Assembly (NCBI GenBank): GCA_913048295.1
Contig: CAJWWK010000008.1
Span: 1-60,793 of the forward strand
Length of the DNA: 60,793 nt
Source of the DNA: an uncultured Dehalococcoidia bacterium
GTDB taxonomy: Bacteria; Chloroflexota; Dehalococcoidia; Lucifugimonadales; Lucifugimonadaceae
Reading direction: 5' to 3'
Shown: piece by piece, positions 23,382-54,794 of the stretch
How positions within the stretch are numbered: position 1 is the first letter of the stretch
Layout: each line of letters starts with the position of its first letter
Notes under the pieces: generated by a model
What the model was told of the DNA's origin: nothing
Databases searched by the model: none
What the model saw: the letters and a program-made list of their open reading frames with translations, nothing else
Position numbers and translations under genes: made by a program

Positions 23382-23936
23382 TTAGCCCACAAGCGGCGTA
23401 CCGTCGGGGCGGAGTCCGCGGGCAGCCATGCGTCGTGCGCGGCTATCAAAGTTGGCGCAGTCTTCGCAGACGCTCTCGGGAATGATGCCCCGGTTGATGA
23501 GGAACCCGAATATCGCGCAGCCTAGGCAGAAGCCGAAGATGCTTTCGAGTCCGGCAGCGAAGATAAGGCCTCCGAGAACGATATAGGCAACACCGTTCAG
23601 ACCGAACCCGAGCGACAACACCGCTGCACTAACGCTGAAAGCGATGCCCATAGTTGCGGCAAAGCGTTTTGGGGGACCGGCGACCGGTCGGTAGGGGAGG
23701 CGAAACCTCGGGACAATCACCTTTGTGACGAGTATCGCAAGCGGGCTGAGACGGGGTCCGGCCAGCACCCGCGCTATGAATCCGTAGGCCAGCACCAGGG
23801 TGATGAGGGGCTGGTCGAAAACGATAGTTGCAACTGCCATTATCACCACGCCACCTGCCACCGACCGGGCCACGCTGGCGTTCATTGGGTGAGGGAAGCT
23901 GAAAAACGCATCTTTTTGAGGTGTGATTGTTGTCAT
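23382..23936 (-). CDS. DUF4395 membrane protein
   Basis: 184 residues with about four hydrophobic segments (around 25-50, 60-75, 90-115, 118-140). The family-typical motif ESIFGFCLGCAIFGFL carries a CxxC-like cysteine pair, and a second pair VCEDC lies near the C-terminus. RLSPLAILVTKVIVPRF is also typical of DUF4395. The cysteines suggest a thiol or metal role at the membrane; in other genomes such proteins sit next to thioredoxin-like or sulfurtransferase genes (family knowledge), but not here. Function unknown. Confidence 0.82.
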   Translation of the reverse strand: MTTITPQKDAFFSFPHPMNASVARSVAGGVVIMAVATIVFDQPLITLVLAYGFIARVLAGPRLSPLAILVTKVIVPRFRLPYRPVAGPPKRFAATMGIAFSVSAAVLSLGFGLNGVAYIVLGGLIFAAGLESIFGFCLGCAIFGFLINRGIIPESVCEDCANFDSRARRMAARGLRPDGTPLVG

Positions 23937-24008: not shown

Positions 24009-24480
24009 GCGGCGGTCAAGGTCGTTTCGTGCGCGAGCCTAAAGTGCCGTCTCCTCGGTGGTGAAACAGCAACAGGGACACTTTGTGCGGAATGGTGCGC
24101 GTGAAAGGTAAATGCTCATATCACTAGAAGCGTAACTCCAAACGGCCCGTCAACGCAATTCGTATCGACCCCTGCTCGTGAAGAAAATCTGTAAAGACGT
24201 TCGCAACGTCAGACGTTCGTTTTCTAAAGAAACTCCTACAAACGTCCGACTTGACCCTCACAAGCGTCTGTTTTCATAGAGGTTATACGGACTAAGGCGG
24301 TTCAATTACTCGGCGTTACAGCCGGTGATTCCCCGGCAAGAACTGAACCCTGATTACGTCAGTGCCGATTGGACAATATATAGGCCTTCGGGCCGTGCGG
24401 TCTCCTCATCCGTATTGGTGGAGTCGGCCCACGAACAGTGATATTGCTGTCGTGGACCGGCCCCATCATGTTTTCAGAGG
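24009..24480. other. Non-coding stretch with a cluster of GACGTT half-sites
   Basis: No protein or known RNA recognised. At 24196-24217 the half-site GACGTT/AACGTC occurs three times in alternating orientation (GACGTT-CGC-AACGTC-A-GACGTT), and AACGTC occurs again at 24241-24246, with CGTCTG near 24265. This pattern looks like an operator array or a structured RNA. A GC-poor region to 24300 precedes GCCGGTGATTCCCCGGC (24321-24337), a short hairpin. Confidence 0.4.
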
Positions 24481-24484
24481 GTTG

Positions 24485-24772
24485 TGCTTCGGGCGTGAGC
24501 GTTATGTTCCGGGCGTTCATTATCAACTCCGGGCGCAATCGGATTGCTTGGTCGCAGCTGCAATCTACCCTCCGCTAACCCCTCCCGAAGGAGGGGGACA
24601 GCGCGGGGTGCTGGCTATAGGCGTATTAGCTTAGTGCGTGTGTTTTTTAAAACCGGGCGCACATTCGTGCTTGCCAGATGACTGGCGTGAGCAAATAGCG
24701 CGTCGCATATCTCCCCCTCTCGGTCTACCCCGGTCCGGTGGAGAGGGCGTCACGCTTCGGTCGAAATCACTG
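24485..24772. repeat. Mosaic intergenic repeat, copy C (longest)
   Basis: Contains modules of both other copies: TTCCGGGCG and CTCCGGGCG runs; GCTTGGTCGC and GCTGCAATCTACCCTCC (24546-24573, as in copy B); the palindrome ACCCCTCCCGAAGGAGGGG (24578-24596, as in copy A); CCGGGCGCACATTCGTGC (from 24653, as in B); GCGCGTCGCATATCTCC (24698-24714, as in A); and GGAGAGGGCGT near 24740. It lies directly at the 3' end of the methyltransferase-DUF371 gene. Confidence 0.72.
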
Positions 24773-24779
24773 ACCGGGT

Positions 24780-25886
24780 CTATTTCTGTTTGACCGTAAC
24801 CATTATTGATGCGTCTGGATCAGACAGGCTGCGAATAAAGCTTCGGGTGAATTGCGAGGCGGGCTTGTCTAAATCGACTGCAAATGTTTGCTCGGTGGGC
24901 AGTCGCGACTTCCGAAATATCATCCGTTCAGAATCCCCGTACGCTGGATTCACCGTGGCGTGGAACGTCTCGGAGGAGTCGCCGACCGCAATTTCAACTG
25001 TCACATTGCCCACGATATTTTGTAGATCGGCGAGAGAGAAGTCGGCTGCGACCCCGAGTACGCAGGTGGCCCGACCTGTGATCTCGTTATCGCGCGTGAA
25101 CTCTACAGTTTTATGGTGAGTACCTCGAATATTGGGATGACCCGAACACTTGAAGGTGTACGAGGCCGAATGCGTGCCAGCCAAATTCTTGCCAGAAGGA
25201 CTGGGGGGCGTATCACCCGTTTGACGTTGCAGTGGTCGCGTCGCCGTTGCCTCAATCTGGACGGCTTCCGCAAGCTGGTTTTGAGCCAGCTTTCTGGCCC
25301 ATGTAGTACCTATCTGCCGGATCTCCTCACTTCCGACGCGGCAAACGTCTGTGACCTGAAATCCCGATTGCTCGAGGCCTGGCATCACCACCGAATCAAG
25401 GTACGCGGGTGTCAATTCCGGTAAATCTGCCAGGACCAACGGTGTCGGCGCCCCTGCCGTCTGGTGATACAGAGAAAGTCTCAACGGTGCCCCCGGCATG
25501 CAGATCCGCCGTATGCTCGACAGAAGCTCGGGCTTGGGAACCACAATCCCGTGTAGCAACTCACCCCACGGTAAGTTCACGAACACCTCGTCGGCTATCG
25601 ACTGAAGTTCATCCGTAATCTCTTGAACGCGAGAGACCAAATACAGGATGTTGTCTTTTCCTCCGCGCGTCGGCTTGCGACGGACGCGCTTTGATTGCTT
25701 CAGAAGGTTGTCCTGGTTCGCGTCAATTCCGATGCAAAACGCGTCTGGTCGATCTGCTGCCAGCCGGTAGGCAAATTTACCGTCACCGGCACCGATATCG
25801 ACGATGACCGGGCGCCGCTCGCCTATCATTCCTTCTAGCTGAACGCGGGTTAAATTAGCGATCCGCCCGCCAACCAGGGCATTCAT
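24780..25886 (-). CDS. KamB/NpmA-like 16S rRNA (A1408-N1) methyltransferase fused to DUF371
   Basis: 368 residues, two parts. Residues 1-~212 match the aminoglycoside-resistance methyltransferases NpmA/KamB: SAM motif VDIGAGDGKFAYRLA (29-43), GIDANQ with the ribose-binding D55, RKPTRGGKDNILYLVS, and LPWGELLHG (105-113). The two tryptophans that sandwich A1408 in NpmA/KamB correspond to W107 and W196 (TTWARKL). After a Pro/Ser/Thr linker (~213-243), residues ~247-368 match DUF371, an uncharacterised and mainly archaeal domain: GHPNIRGTHHKTVEFTRDNE, then a GR-TCVLGVAADFSLADLQ strand and MIFRKS. The start at 25886 encodes MNALVGGRIANL, typical of the family. Predicted reaction: SAM-dependent N1 methylation of 16S A1408; the role of DUF371 is unknown. 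The gene is isolated, with repeats at its 3' end and a 680-bp gap to the divergent EF-G2 gene. I know of no described example of this fusion. Confidence 0.85.
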   Translation of the reverse strand: MNALVGGRIANLTRVQLEGMIGERRPVIVDIGAGDGKFAYRLAADRPDAFCIGIDANQDNLLKQSKRVRRKPTRGGKDNILYLVSRVQEITDELQSIADEVFVNLPWGELLHGIVVPKPELLSSIRRICMPGAPLRLSLYHQTAGAPTPLVLADLPELTPAYLDSVVMPGLEQSGFQVTDVCRVGSEEIRQIGTTWARKLAQNQLAEAVQIEATATRPLQRQTGDTPPSPSGKNLAGTHSASYTFKCSGHPNIRGTHHKTVEFTRDNEITGRATCVLGVAADFSLADLQNIVGNVTVEIAVGDSSETFHATVNPAYGDSERMIFRKSRLPTEQTFAVDLDKPASQFTRSFIRSLSDPDASIMVTVKQK

Positions 25887-26566
25887 ATTCCAAGTCGCGA
25901 ATTGCCGTGACTGCTATCAGAAATCTTCGCCCGGTATGTTAGGTATCGCAACGGCATAGAGAAATTGTGCGAGCAATAAGTGCTTCGCTACGCGTACTCG
26001 GGGCTCCGGATTATTCCGCACATTGGGCAGGGGCCTGGGTGCCAGAGCTCTGCCAGACATATCGCAAATCAAGACAGATTCCTACCCGGCGGGAGTCCTA
26101 GCTTAACTGCGAGAAATAGCGATTTAGATTAGGCCGCACAGTATATCAGTGCCATCTATCTGCATCTGCGATATTTTGCGTGCCACCCGCGGGTTTGATT
26201 CCAGCAAAAAGACACCGTTCAGTCTTTCTCTCAAAAAAAGAAAATCCTATCCCCCGAGGGTGCTATGCCAGTCAATTCTGAGCTGCTGAGAAGCGAGCCG
26301 GTTTCGATTGGAAGAACTCGATCCGGGGGGATGCTGCAAAAGCAACGTCACGGGGTGTCCGCCGGGCTATTTGGTCCAATACGCTGATCAGCTCTCGTAA
26401 AACGTCGCGGGGAGTACGCTGCGGGCTTCACAGAATTCACCTTTTGGACAGGGCGAAATTTACCTGTTTTTCGATTCCGGTGCTAACATCGGCGGCATAG
26501 CGAACTCGACCTATCGAGACGAGGCAGAAATCGTCCTATCGCCTCGGATATCAGGAGACACGAGGT
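25887..26566. other. 680-bp non-coding region between divergent genes
   Basis: Separates the methyltransferase-DUF371 gene (minus) from EF-G2 (plus). Stop codons are frequent in all frames and I find no tRNA, SRP RNA, tmRNA or known riboswitch. It is more AT-rich in the middle (26100-26260, with a run CTCAAAAAAAGAAAATCC near 26231) than the neighbours. It must carry both promoters; its length suggests extra regulation or an unrecognised RNA. Confidence 0.5.
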
Positions 26567-28534
26567 ATGGTTGAATTGAACACAGGCCAAATTCGCAACG
26601 TGGCCCTTGCGGCGCACAACGGTGCGGGTAAGACGTCACTTGCCGATGCATTGTTTTTTGTAGCTGGCGGAACGACCCGGCAGGGCAAGGTCGACGACCA
26701 GACGAGCCTTTCCGACTATGAACCTGAAGAGCAGCGTCGCGGTTCAAGCATCCAACTCGCAATTTTGCCTTGCTCCTGGAACGATCACCGAATTAACGTC
26801 CTCGACACCCCGGGGTACCCCGATTTTCGCGGCGATATGGTCTCGGCCATCCGCGTTGCCGATTCCGTGGTCATCGTCATCTCGGCCGCTTCAGGAATCG
26901 AAGTCGGTGCCCAGCAGGCCTGGAACTACACTTCTGACCTCGGCCTCCCGACCGCGATCGTGGTGAACAAACTTGATCGAGAAAACACGTCCTTCGGGCA
27001 AACCTGTCTGGAAATAGCCGAGGCATGGGGTCGTCAGTGCGTGCCCGTCCAGACCGTCAACGCCGATGCTGAATCGTTCAGCAGCGTTTCGAGTGCGCTC
27101 GAGTCGGGTGACCTTGACGAGAGCGTTATCGAGGCCATTGCGGAGGCCGACGACGACCTGATGATGAAATATCTCGAAGGTGAGGAGCTTTCGCCCGATG
27201 AGATTTCTTCGGGTCTGAAAGCGGGAGTCCTCGACCGCAGCATCATTCCAATTTTTGCGACCTCCGCTGCCAACAACACCGGCATGACCGAACTGCTGGA
27301 CGGCATTATCAGTCTTCTGCCATCACCCGACGACGTCGAGTTGCCCGACCTGCCCGAGGGTGCCCAGGCCGCACTTGTGTTCAAGACGTCCGCCGACCCG
27401 TTCGTCGGAAAGCTTTCATATTTCCGTGTATATGGCGCAACGCTGAAATCGAACGCACCGCTCTGGAACGTCAACAAGGGCGAAAACGAACGGGTGGGCC
27501 AGGTATACCGGCCGGCTGGCAAGGAAAACGAAGCGGTCGACCAGGTCGTCCGTGGTGATATCGGCGTCATCTCGCGTTTGAGCCACACCCAGACATTCGA
27601 CACGCTTTCCGACAAGGGCAAAGATGTGAAGCTGGTCGGTATCGACCTGCCAACGCCAGTGTTCGCCCTGGCTGTGACGCCGAGCACACAGGCCGATCTC
27701 GACAAGATGGCCGATTCGCTGAGCAGGATCACTGAAGAGGACCCCACTCTCGAAATTGAACGGAACGCCGCCACGTCGGAGACCATCCTTCACGGCCTTG
27801 GCGATATCCATGTCGACCTGGCAATTGAACGTATTGCCAGGAAGTTCGATGTAAATCTCGATACCGCTTTGCCCAGCATTCCCTACCGCGAAACTGTCAT
27901 CGGGCAGACATCGGTCTCTTACAAACACAAAAAGCAGTCGGGCGGGCGTGGGCAGTACGGCCACGTCGTACTCGAGATATCACCTGCCAAAGCCGGAGAG
28001 GGCATTACGTTCGGGTCCAAGGTCGTTGGTGGAAACGTGCCCAAGGACTACATTCCGTCGGTCGAAAAGGGTGTCCGAAACGCGGCCATTGGCGGCGTCG
28101 TTGCAGGATTCCCGGTTGTCGATGTAGCGGTGATGCTCACCGACGGCTCTTCGCACTCAGTCGATTCATCAGGCATGGCGTTCGAGATCGCCGGTAGCAT
28201 GGGATTTCGGCAGGCGGTGCGTGATGCAAAGCCAACTCTGCTTGAGCCGGTACTGAAGCTGAAGATTCTCTCGCCCGACGATTGCGCTGGCGATGTTATG
28301 GGCGATCTAAGCAGCCGTCGTGCGCGCATTGGCGGAATGGAGCCAAAGGGCATGGGTCTTACCGAGATCACCGCGGAGGCCCCCGCGTCGATGATGCAGC
28401 GATATGCCGCCGATCTGAGGTCGCTTACGAAGGCCCGAGGAGACTTTACGGCGGTTCTGGACCATTACGAGCCGGTGCCGCCACAGGACGCCCAAAAGGT
28501 GATAACGGCACGCGGTTCAGGCGAAGAAGAATAG
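26567..28534 (+). CDS. Elongation factor G-like protein (EF-G2 type)
   Basis: 655 residues, shorter than canonical EF-G (~690-700). GTPase motifs: G1 AAHNGAGKTSL (canonical EF-G has AHIDAGKTT), switch region EQRRGSSIQ, G3 LDTPGYPDF where the usual catalytic histidine of DTPGH is tyrosine, and G4 VNKLDREN. Domains II-V follow (FKTSADPFVGKLSYFRVYGA; HGLGDIHVDLAIERI; KKQSGGRGQYGHVV; PEPKGMGLTEITAEAP-like end). This matches the EF-G-like "EF-G2" paralogue group rather than housekeeping FusA, so GTP hydrolysis and ribosome role are uncertain. AGGAG sits nine bases before the ATG. No str operon genes are adjacent. It is divergent from the rRNA methyltransferase gene. Confidence 0.92.
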   Translation: MVELNTGQIRNVALAAHNGAGKTSLADALFFVAGGTTRQGKVDDQTSLSDYEPEEQRRGSSIQLAILPCSWNDHRINVLDTPGYPDFRGDMVSAIRVADSVVIVISAASGIEVGAQQAWNYTSDLGLPTAIVVNKLDRENTSFGQTCLEIAEAWGRQCVPVQTVNADAESFSSVSSALESGDLDESVIEAIAEADDDLMMKYLEGEELSPDEISSGLKAGVLDRSIIPIFATSAANNTGMTELLDGIISLLPSPDDVELPDLPEGAQAALVFKTSADPFVGKLSYFRVYGATLKSNAPLWNVNKGENERVGQVYRPAGKENEAVDQVVRGDIGVISRLSHTQTFDTLSDKGKDVKLVGIDLPTPVFALAVTPSTQADLDKMADSLSRITEEDPTLEIERNAATSETILHGLGDIHVDLAIERIARKFDVNLDTALPSIPYRETVIGQTSVSYKHKKQSGGRGQYGHVVLEISPAKAGEGITFGSKVVGGNVPKDYIPSVEKGVRNAAIGGVVAGFPVVDVAVMLTDGSSHSVDSSGMAFEIAGSMGFRQAVRDAKPTLLEPVLKLKILSPDDCAGDVMGDLSSRRARIGGMEPKGMGLTEITAEAPASMMQRYAADLRSLTKARGDFTAVLDHYEPVPPQDAQKVITARGSGEEE

Positions 28535-52697: not shown

Positions 52698-52743
52698 CAC
52701 AATTGCTTCCACATACACAAGACACATATACTTAGCAATTGTG
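52698..52743 (+). promoter_or_regulatory. Promoter of the ilv-leu operon inside a perfect inverted repeat
   Basis: TTGCTT (52703-52708), 18-bp spacer, TATACT (52727-52732), predicting transcription from about 52740, exactly where the T-box leader begins. A perfect 10-bp inverted repeat CACAATTGCT (52698-52707) / AGCAATTGTG (52734-52743) brackets it, covering the -35 box and the start site, as an operator for a dimeric regulator would. Confidence 0.65.
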
Positions 52744-52999
52744 AAACGCTGTGAACGGGAGTAGTACCGAATACGGCGCGCCGAGAGAGCCGGTGGTTGG
52801 TGTGAACCGGTGCGTGCCAGTTTGGGAACTCGCCCTGGAGCGGTTGGTCTGAACGTTGAGACGCCAGGATCAAACGGGTTGCCACGTTACGGCCAATTGA
52901 GCGGTCAGGTGTTCGCTAGCAATTGCTGCACCCGGCAATCAAGGGTGGTACCGCGGGATGCAAGTCTCGTCCTTTGGATAGAGGGCGGGACTTTTTTTT
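52741..52999 (+). promoter_or_regulatory. T-box riboswitch, predicted Leu (CUC) specifier
   Basis: Senses uncharged tRNA and opens transcription of ilvB. Antiterminator T-box AAGGGTGGTACCGCG at 52941-52955. Terminator stem GTCTCGTCC (52964-52972) / GGGCGGGAC (52983-52991) plus eight T (52992-52999). Stem I is well formed: lower stem AACGCT / AGCGGTT with a kink-turn-like GUGA/UGG loop; AGTAGTA (52760-52766) on the 5' side of the specifier loop; CCGAAT / GTTTGG; GGCGCGC / GCGTGCC; and the AG-bulge region GAGAGAGCCGGTGGTTGGTG. The 3' side of the specifier loop reads GAACTCGCC, placing CTC (leucine) at 52829-52831, followed by a purine. The specifier assignment rests on manual folding. Confidence 0.85.
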
Positions 53000-53111
53000 G
53001 CCCGCAATAAATGGGATTTGGTCCGCAGTAAGTCTGATCGGGTTAGTCACTAACAGATGGCAGGGAAGGAATTGTCGAAACGATTTCGGGAATGTCGCCA
53101 GGAATATTGAA

Positions 53112-54794
53112 ATGTTAAAGCACCTTACCGGAAGTGAAATCGTCTGCGAAGCTCTAATTAAAGAGGGTGTAAGCGTCGTATTCGGCATCCCCGGGGGCGC
53201 GATTCTCCCGCTCTACGGAGTGCTCTCCAAGTACCCGGCTCTGCGCCACATACTTACTCGCCACGAGCAGGGTGCTGCTCACGCAGCGGATGGCTACGCC
53301 CGTTCGACGGGAACTGTGGGCGTTGCATTTGCTACATCCGGCCCCGGGGCAACCAACCTCGTCACCGGGCTGGCGACTGCCATGATGGACTCCGTTCCGA
53401 TGGTTGCCATTACAGGGCAGGTGGGCCGCGCAGCCATCGGCACGGACGCGTTTCAAGAAGCTGACATCACAGGCGCTACCATGCCCGTCACAAAGCACAA
53501 CTACCTTGTAATGCGGGCAGACGATCTAGGTCGGACAGTTCACGAGGCGTTTCATATTGCGCGTACTGGTCGACCCGGTCCAGTGCTGATCGATATTCCA
53601 AAAGATGTCTTCATCGAGATGGGTGAATATGATCCGGACGAGTCAATCGATCTACCCGGGTACAGTGTGCCCGGCATGGCAGACGAGGCGCAGATCGACG
53701 CTGCGGCTGCCCTGATCAATCAGGCGGAACGCCCGGTAATACTCGCGGGACACGGAGTCGTTCTGTCACGGTCATTCGACGAACTGCGAGAATTGGCTGA
53801 GAAAGCCCAGATCCCCGTGGTTACGACCCTGTTGGGAATATCTTCGTTTCCAGAGGATCACGTTCTGAGCACCGGATTCCCGGGAATGCACGGGATGGCG
53901 TATGCATCACTCGCCATAGATCAAGCCGATTTGATAATTAACTTTGGCAGTCGGTTCGATGATCGTATCGTGGGGGACGCGCAGCGATTTTCTACCGGTT
54001 CCAAAAAAATCCACGTCGATATCGATCCAGCTGAAATCAACAAGACCATCCATGTCGAGGCCCCGGTTGTGGGCAACATTAAAGATGTGTTCGGGCAGCT
54101 GCTTCCGAAAGTGAAAAAGACTACCCATGTGGAATGGCTGCAGCATGTTGAGCACCTCAAGGCTGAACACCCTTCACTTCGCATCCCGGAGTCCGATCGG
54201 CTGATGGGGCAGCATGTTGTCAAGGCCCTTTCTGACGTGACGAAGGGTGATGCAATCATCACGACAGGTGTAGGCCAGCACCAGATGTGGGCGGCACAGC
54301 ATTACCAGTTCAAAAATGCGAACTCGTGGCTGTCTTCAGGCGGCGCTGGCACGATGGGTTATGAGGTTCCGTCGGCGATCGGTGCGCAGGTCGGCAACCC
54401 AGACAAGCTCGTCTGGTCGATCTGCGGTGACGGCGGTTTTCAGATGACGATGATGGAACTGGCGACCGTTGTCGAAAACCGGTTGCCGATTAAATACGCG
54501 ATTATGAACAACAACCACCTGGGGATGATTACCCAGTGGCAGAGCTTTTTCTATGACGGTGATTACCAGGCCGAGACATACACGGGGAATCCCGATTTTG
54601 TGAAACTTGCCGAAGCGTACGGAATCAAGGGAATCCGCGTAACAAGTCAGGATGAACTTGAAAGTGCCATTCGGGAAGCGAATGCCCACGAGGGCCCGGT
54701 AGTTGTCGATTTCGTTATCGAAAAAGTCGACGATCTCTACCCGATGATTCCGGTCGGCCAGAGCATTGAGGAACTGATAGAGGACCCAAACTAA
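53112..54794 (+). CDS. ilvB: Acetolactate synthase, catalytic subunit
   Basis: 560 residues from ATG 53112 with AGGA eight bases upstream; the longer frame would run back into the T-box terminator. ThDP enzyme: catalytic glutamate in TRHEQGAAHAADGYAR, FATSGPGATNLVTGLATA, TGQVGRAAIGTDAFQE, RPGPVLIDIPKD, the ThDP/Mg motif GDGGFQMTMMELATVVENRLPIKYAIMNNNHLGMI, and QWQ after it. First step of Val/Leu/Ile synthesis. Its stop overlaps ilvN. Confidence 0.97.
   Translation: MLKHLTGSEIVCEALIKEGVSVVFGIPGGAILPLYGVLSKYPALRHILTRHEQGAAHAADGYARSTGTVGVAFATSGPGATNLVTGLATAMMDSVPMVAITGQVGRAAIGTDAFQEADITGATMPVTKHNYLVMRADDLGRTVHEAFHIARTGRPGPVLIDIPKDVFIEMGEYDPDESIDLPGYSVPGMADEAQIDAAAALINQAERPVILAGHGVVLSRSFDELRELAEKAQIPVVTTLLGISSFPEDHVLSTGFPGMHGMAYASLAIDQADLIINFGSRFDDRIVGDAQRFSTGSKKIHVDIDPAEINKTIHVEAPVVGNIKDVFGQLLPKVKKTTHVEWLQHVEHLKAEHPSLRIPESDRLMGQHVVKALSDVTKGDAIITTGVGQHQMWAAQHYQFKNANSWLSSGGAGTMGYEVPSAIGAQVGNPDKLVWSICGDGGFQMTMMELATVVENRLPIKYAIMNNNHLGMITQWQSFFYDGDYQAETYTGNPDFVKLAEAYGIKGIRVTSQDELESAIREANAHEGPVVVDFVIEKVDDLYPMIPVGQSIEELIEDPN

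Follow-up and report, generated by a model that had tools for sequence, protein, structure and literature searches.

The window, i.e., the whole stretch of DNA that was analysed (60,793 nucleotides, contig C8 of a 2.43 Mb metagenome-assembled genome, MAG), encodes a protein in which an NpmA/KamB-type methyltransferase is joined to a DUF371 domain. This protein is probably an m1A1408 methyltransferase whose DUF371 part would be an accessory domain for methylation of the decoding site, most likely devoted to docking or positioning on the 30S subunit. DUF371 is considered as a decoding-site accessory because it is shared with RsmI by fusion and with the A1408 enzymes by linkage or fusion.

Table 1. 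Features of the fusion gene and of its surroundings (positions in the window)
Feature	Positions	Strand	Basis or remark
Left syntenic flank, DUF4395 gene	23382..23936	minus	present in 19/19 genomes of the genus searched
Segment missing from sister genomes, carrying the fusion gene	24469..26459		alignment to L149, L150, L151
Fusion gene, NpmA/KamB-type methyltransferase + linker + DUF371	24780..25886	minus	368 aa, ATG to stop
DUF371 domain (PF04027), residues 245-366	24789..25154	minus	Pfam; G249, H257, C275, R325 kept
Linker, residues 216-241, Pro/Ser/Thr-rich	25164..25241	minus	pLDDT <50 at 225-237
NpmA domain (PF24675), residues 4-213	25248..25877	minus	Pfam, PDB sequence search, Foldseek
W196 codon	25299..25301	minus	= CacKam W203, NpmA W197 (alignment; PMC4705659)
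W107 codon	25566..25568	minus	= CacKam W113, NpmA W107 (alignment; PMC4705659)
Right syntenic flank, EF-G-like translational GTPase gene	26567..28534	plus	synteny with sister loci

The open reading frame is real and lies on the minus strand, which the original prediction did not give; all the motifs cited there are found in its product. The NpmA profile of Pfam, which stands for 16S rRNA (adenine(1408)-N(1))-methyltransferase, matches the N-terminal part with 196.9 bits (cut-off 60; 3.4e-58) and the DUF371 profile matches the C-terminal part with 76.1 bits (cut-off 25; 3.3e-21), i.e., far beyond chance in both cases. Two confidently folded domains are seen in the AlphaFold2 model (mean pLDDT 91.5, pTM 0.65). 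The linker between them is disordered in this model, thus the mutual orientation of the two domains is not predicted. With Foldseek, 19 solved chains of the m1A1408 family are ranked at the top (TM to target 0.79-0.95) and are followed by both solved DUF371 structures (3cbn and 7y7n), which are also retrieved by the PDB sequence search with the C-terminal part. The assignment of the two parts to the NpmA/KamB family and to DUF371, already proposed from the sequence, is thus borne out by profiles, PDB matches and predicted folds.

The best 10 matches of the PDB sequence search are all m1A1408-family enzymes, the first being CacKam, Kmr, NpmB, NpmA and KamB. The NCBIfam KamB model is matched as well (6.4e-37), yet below its narrow cut-off; the protein also falls under the narrow cut-offs of the other models of single named proteins (NpmA, NpmB, WarA). 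The methyltransferase domain has the class I fold with the linkers specific to the family (TM up to 0.95 to 3p2e and 0.92 to 3mte), and its identity to the aligned homologues is about 25-36%. In the alignment of the window protein with 33 homologues (34 sequences), D30, D55, W107 and W196 are invariant and E88 is nearly so; the tryptophan pair singled out by the original prediction is thus kept throughout. These five residues correspond to D36, D61, E94, W113 and W203 of CacKam; substitutions there cause loss or a strong drop of resistance (PMC4705659, Table 1). S201/S202 of CacKam, which precede the second tryptophan, are replaced by T194/T195, and threonine is also found in several homologues. 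Judged by alignment, the window protein keeps the family's catalytic residues or has conservative substitutions at these positions. A 30S-docking surface should be basic, and the beta2/3 segment KQSKRVRRKPTRGGK is strongly so. The fold, the SAM site, the W107/W196 pair and the basic beta2/3 linker are thus common to the window domain and to KamB (Streptoalloteichus tenebrarius), CacKam (Catenulispora), NpmA, NpmB and Kmr; unlike the window protein, none of these solved enzymes is fused to DUF371. The conserved 3' motif of 16S rRNA has no match in the MAG assembly.

The DUF371 domain has a TM of 0.80 to 3cbn. Among 48 DUF371 sequences of archaeal and bacterial origin, no variation is seen at G249, H257, C275 and R325 (window numbering), and H250, R254, T256, T260, T334, R348 and L354 are nearly invariant. 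Sequence, fold and invariant residues are common to the window domain and to the DUF371 proteins of methanogens (MTH639/3cbn, 7y7n). However, most of the archaeal DUF371 found are short stand-alone proteins (about 140-180 aa), whereas that of the window is C-terminal on a predicted rRNA methyltransferase. ECOD places DUF371 among duplicated RIFT-related barrels, with homology to the GutA-like PTS IIA component, and assigns a conserved site to it (PMC4256011). The view that DUF371 occurs mainly in archaea is correct but incomplete, since it is also a rare bacterial domain. The recurrent neighbours at the archaeal loci (L059-L121) are genes for PCMT, TRM5/TYW2 tRNA methyltransferases and XPG/FEN1 nucleases.

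Genome contigs were scanned with three bacterial DUF371 sequences as queries, giving 80 loci (35 bacterial and 45 archaeal). Two degenerate patterns were matched exactly, a procedure that diverged copies can escape; the mixed archaeal/bacterial alignment is too diverse for pattern search. Neighbour genes were called mechanically from open reading frames. An NpmA/KamB-type gene adjoins DUF371 at 31 of the 35 other bacterial loci, mostly at 25 bp or less, and at none of the 45 archaeal loci. In tandem arrangement, DUF371 precedes the methyltransferase in 11 of the 31 pairs and follows it in 8; another 9 pairs are convergent and 3 divergent. Because several loci belong to close relatives (Catenulispora, Actinokineospora, Streptomyces), the pairs represent nearer a dozen independent lineages, which fall in Actinomycetota, Chloroflexota, Alphaproteobacteria and Myxococcota. 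Concerning the four exceptions, the contig ends inside or soon after the DUF371 gene in two (L044, L056), and the two others (L048, L051) have no NpmA-type gene in the fetched flanks and one elsewhere in the genome. The domain pair thus recurs in bacteria as a pair of genes, and as one chain it is found in the window only: no relative of the full fusion protein was obtained by single-protein scans of genome contigs, viral contigs, plasmids and phages.

Within Chloroflexota, DUF371 is above the cut-off in 2 of 400 genomes, i.e., that of the window and G095, where the DUF371 gene starts 15 bp past the stop of an NpmA-type gene. A congener of the latter (G464, search of the order) has the same pair, with a four-base overlap if the GTG start is used. 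Three weak matches in the phylum (G238, G277, G292) were discarded as false positives since, by inspection, their open reading frames are LysZ/ArgB-like amino-acid-kinase genes in an operon of arginine/lysine type. Among 396 Actinomycetota genomes, DUF371 is above the cut-off in one, namely the centre genome itself, and the NpmA profile in seven, six of which are without DUF371. Both families are rare. The dependence is one-sided: NpmA-type genes without DUF371 occur, and bacterial DUF371 is nearly always found with NpmA. No biosynthetic family recurs in the tally of 76 flanking proteins from 15 bacterial loci that would indicate an aminoglycoside biosynthesis context. At L052, L053 (Pseudomonadota) and L055 (Myxococcota), the methyltransferases encoded beside DUF371-RsmI form a separate long branch.

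KamB itself, product of a classic resistance gene, is among the paired methyltransferases: that of the antibiotic producer S. tenebrarius DSM 40477 has 99.5% identity to PDB 3mq2, i.e., one difference in 215 residues with the crystal structure. Its gene lies 76 bp downstream of a gene encoding DUF371 plus a degenerate RsmI (L077:1713-3546). In Catenulispora, the genus of CacKam, loci with the same pair of DUF371 and kam-type genes are found. With kamB as with the kam genes of this genus, DUF371 thus adjoins as a separate gene, in contrast to the window.

All 33 bacterial DUF371 proteins scanned match the DUF371 profile. TIGR00096 (RsmI, 16S C1402 2'-O-methyltransferase) is matched by 8 of them (best 3e-68; 174.4 bits against a cut-off of 167.9 for L043) and TP_methylase by seven. 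The RsmI domain is intact in 7 of these partner proteins and degenerate in the rest; the tails of 24 out of 32 are too degenerate for the TIGR00096 profile. Taken jointly, the degenerate tails align to the intact RsmI tails with an hhalign probability of 99.4 (E 2.8e-21, 258 columns). The AlphaFold model of the kamB partner (pLDDT 91.6, pTM 0.82) comprises a DUF371 and an RsmI fold, matching 3cbn/7y7n and RsmI structures, among them 9pzg, which shows RsmI on the small subunit. In the five genomes checked (L043, L045, L046, L048, L052), the intact DUF371-RsmI fusion is apparently the sole RsmI, and these proteins appear to be housekeeping C1402 methyltransferases with an extra N-terminal domain. 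In the checked genomes with the degenerate form, a separate canonical RsmI is present. The window's genome has an ordinary RsmI on contig C2. Whereas DUF371 is N-terminal to an intact or degenerate RsmI in other bacteria, the window protein has no RsmI part: it ends at residue 368 with no RsmI/TP-methylase domain after DUF371, and no RsmI remnant was found downstream of the gene. RsmI and NpmA both require a mature, assembled 30S subunit, on which they act at the top of helix 44 (PMC5053481, PMC4705659). DUF371 is fused to RsmI and is linked or fused to the KamB/NpmA enzymes, thus it travels with helix-44 methyltransferases. The idea that the fusion offers a functional hint for DUF371 is therefore supported, but was too narrow in resting on one fusion, since bacterial DUF371 is systematically linked to KamB/NpmA and is also fused to RsmI.

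The fusion gene was probably acquired horizontally, judging from its distribution and surroundings. It is absent from 59 relatives (18/18 congeneric genomes and 41 further ones), and the sister loci L149, L150 and L151 have 134-252 bp at the site as compared to about 2 kb in the window. These loci align with the window up to about 24427-24468 and again from about 26460-26481. The GC content of the insert is somewhat lower than that of the flanking genes (0.52-0.56 vs. 0.58-0.60). The original prediction of an «intrinsic» enzyme is thus not upheld: because of the absence in relatives and the empty site in sister genomes, the gene looks acquired. The position of the insert inside conserved synteny argues against contamination and for acquisition in the lineage of the window; loss in all the other relatives would be formally possible instead. 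The EF-G-like GTPase encoded next to the insert has all five EF-G Pfam domains. Elsewhere in the window, a T-box leader (Rfam RF00230, 112 bits) is located at 52742-52977 and overlaps the 5' end of the open reading frame 52923-54794.

The proposed mechanism is as follows. The N-terminal domain would bind SAM and dock on the mature 30S subunit via its basic beta2/3 linker; W107 and W196 would clamp the flipped A1408, whose N1 would then be methylated, a modification expected to block many aminoglycosides. The DUF371 barrel, held on a flexible linker, would assist helix-44 methyltransferases as an accessory domain, most likely in 30S docking or positioning. In other bacteria, DUF371 would be supplied in trans, on the RsmI or RsmI-like partner encoded beside the A1408 enzyme. 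It must be noted that A1408 methylation as such does not require DUF371, since those solved family members that were tested in E. coli are active with no DUF371 in their own chain, and since six of the seven NpmA-positive Actinomycetota genomes lack it. Because archaeal DUF371 is stand-alone and without NpmA-type neighbour, a more general role can be imagined. Tentatively, DUF371 might be a general module of the small-subunit decoding site: alone in archaea, in the maturation or modification of helix 44; in bacteria, coupling C1402 methylation by RsmI with A1408 methylation by KamB/NpmA, a degenerate pseudo-RsmI keeping docking only.

Other readings of DUF371 have to be weighed against an accessory role at the decoding site. 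The barrel could be a sensor of a small ligand, such as an aminoglycoside, SAM/SAH or some other metabolite, and act as an on/off switch of the A1408 methyltransferase, restricting a costly modification to times of need. The ECOD relationship to the GutA-like PTS IIA barrel with its conserved site (PMC4256011) goes in this direction, and the G, H, C and R invariant over archaea and bacteria would fit a pocket better than a surface used for docking only. Nevertheless, sensing is unlikely: DUF371 is common in archaea, where no A1408-type methyltransferase adjoins it, and a switch leaves unexplained its fusion to an intact RsmI that is apparently the only one in five genomes. It is even less probable that DUF371 is a separate enzyme whose target is the ribosome or the rRNA close to the decoding site, the fusions joining consecutive steps. 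Strict conservation of His257, Cys275 and Arg325, near-invariance of His250 and Thr256, and the tRNA and protein methyltransferase genes next to archaeal stand-alone copies would fit such an activity, but the best 50 fold matches of either model include no relative of the DUF371 part that is an enzyme.

Two further explanations concern the methyltransferase domain and the gene. The domain may have drifted to another target, i.e., a different 16S rRNA base or a tRNA, as could be expected from the long branch of the window protein in the homologue tree (1.52) and from its identity of at most 36% to any homologue there; this is improbable given that the m1A1408 active-site and base-clamping residues tested are kept or conservatively replaced and that the basic beta2/3 linker is present. 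Least probable of all, and very doubtful, is an artefact, i.e., an assembly or sequencing error that merged two adjacent genes. The fusion is known from a single assembly, this MAG, and tandem pairs with the methyltransferase first and gaps of only 11-23 bp exist (L002, L037, L047). However, both domains are in one frame through a linker of 26 residues without stop, and the sole nearby alternative start is a TTG without clear ribosome-binding site; moreover, the synteny of the flanks with the genus makes a contaminating contig unlikely.

The m1A1408 family, RsmI and DUF371 are already known. A literature search, reaching only a minority of subscription papers, gave the ECOD paper alone for DUF371; no function of the domain was found described, despite two solved structures and a fold classification, and no evidence of RNA or ribosome binding was found. 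The same search returned no DUF371, RsmI or tetrapyrrole-methylase partner of KamB, and no description of the NpmA-DUF371 fusion, in agreement with the original prediction, nor of the DUF371-RsmI fusion or the KamB-DUF371 pair.

The fusion and the conserved gene pair, including that of kamB, connect DUF371 with two methyltransferases whose targets in the decoding site are only a few nucleotides from each other, which makes its role testable at this site. These results suggest that a dedicated partner exists for some resistance methyltransferases of producer type and has been overlooked because these enzymes have been studied alone in E. coli. According to PMC12406665 (citing Lioy et al.), Arm/Kam enzymes interfere with nearby housekeeping methylation. 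This conflict might be managed by the linked RsmI-type partner, a concrete candidate for such a task.
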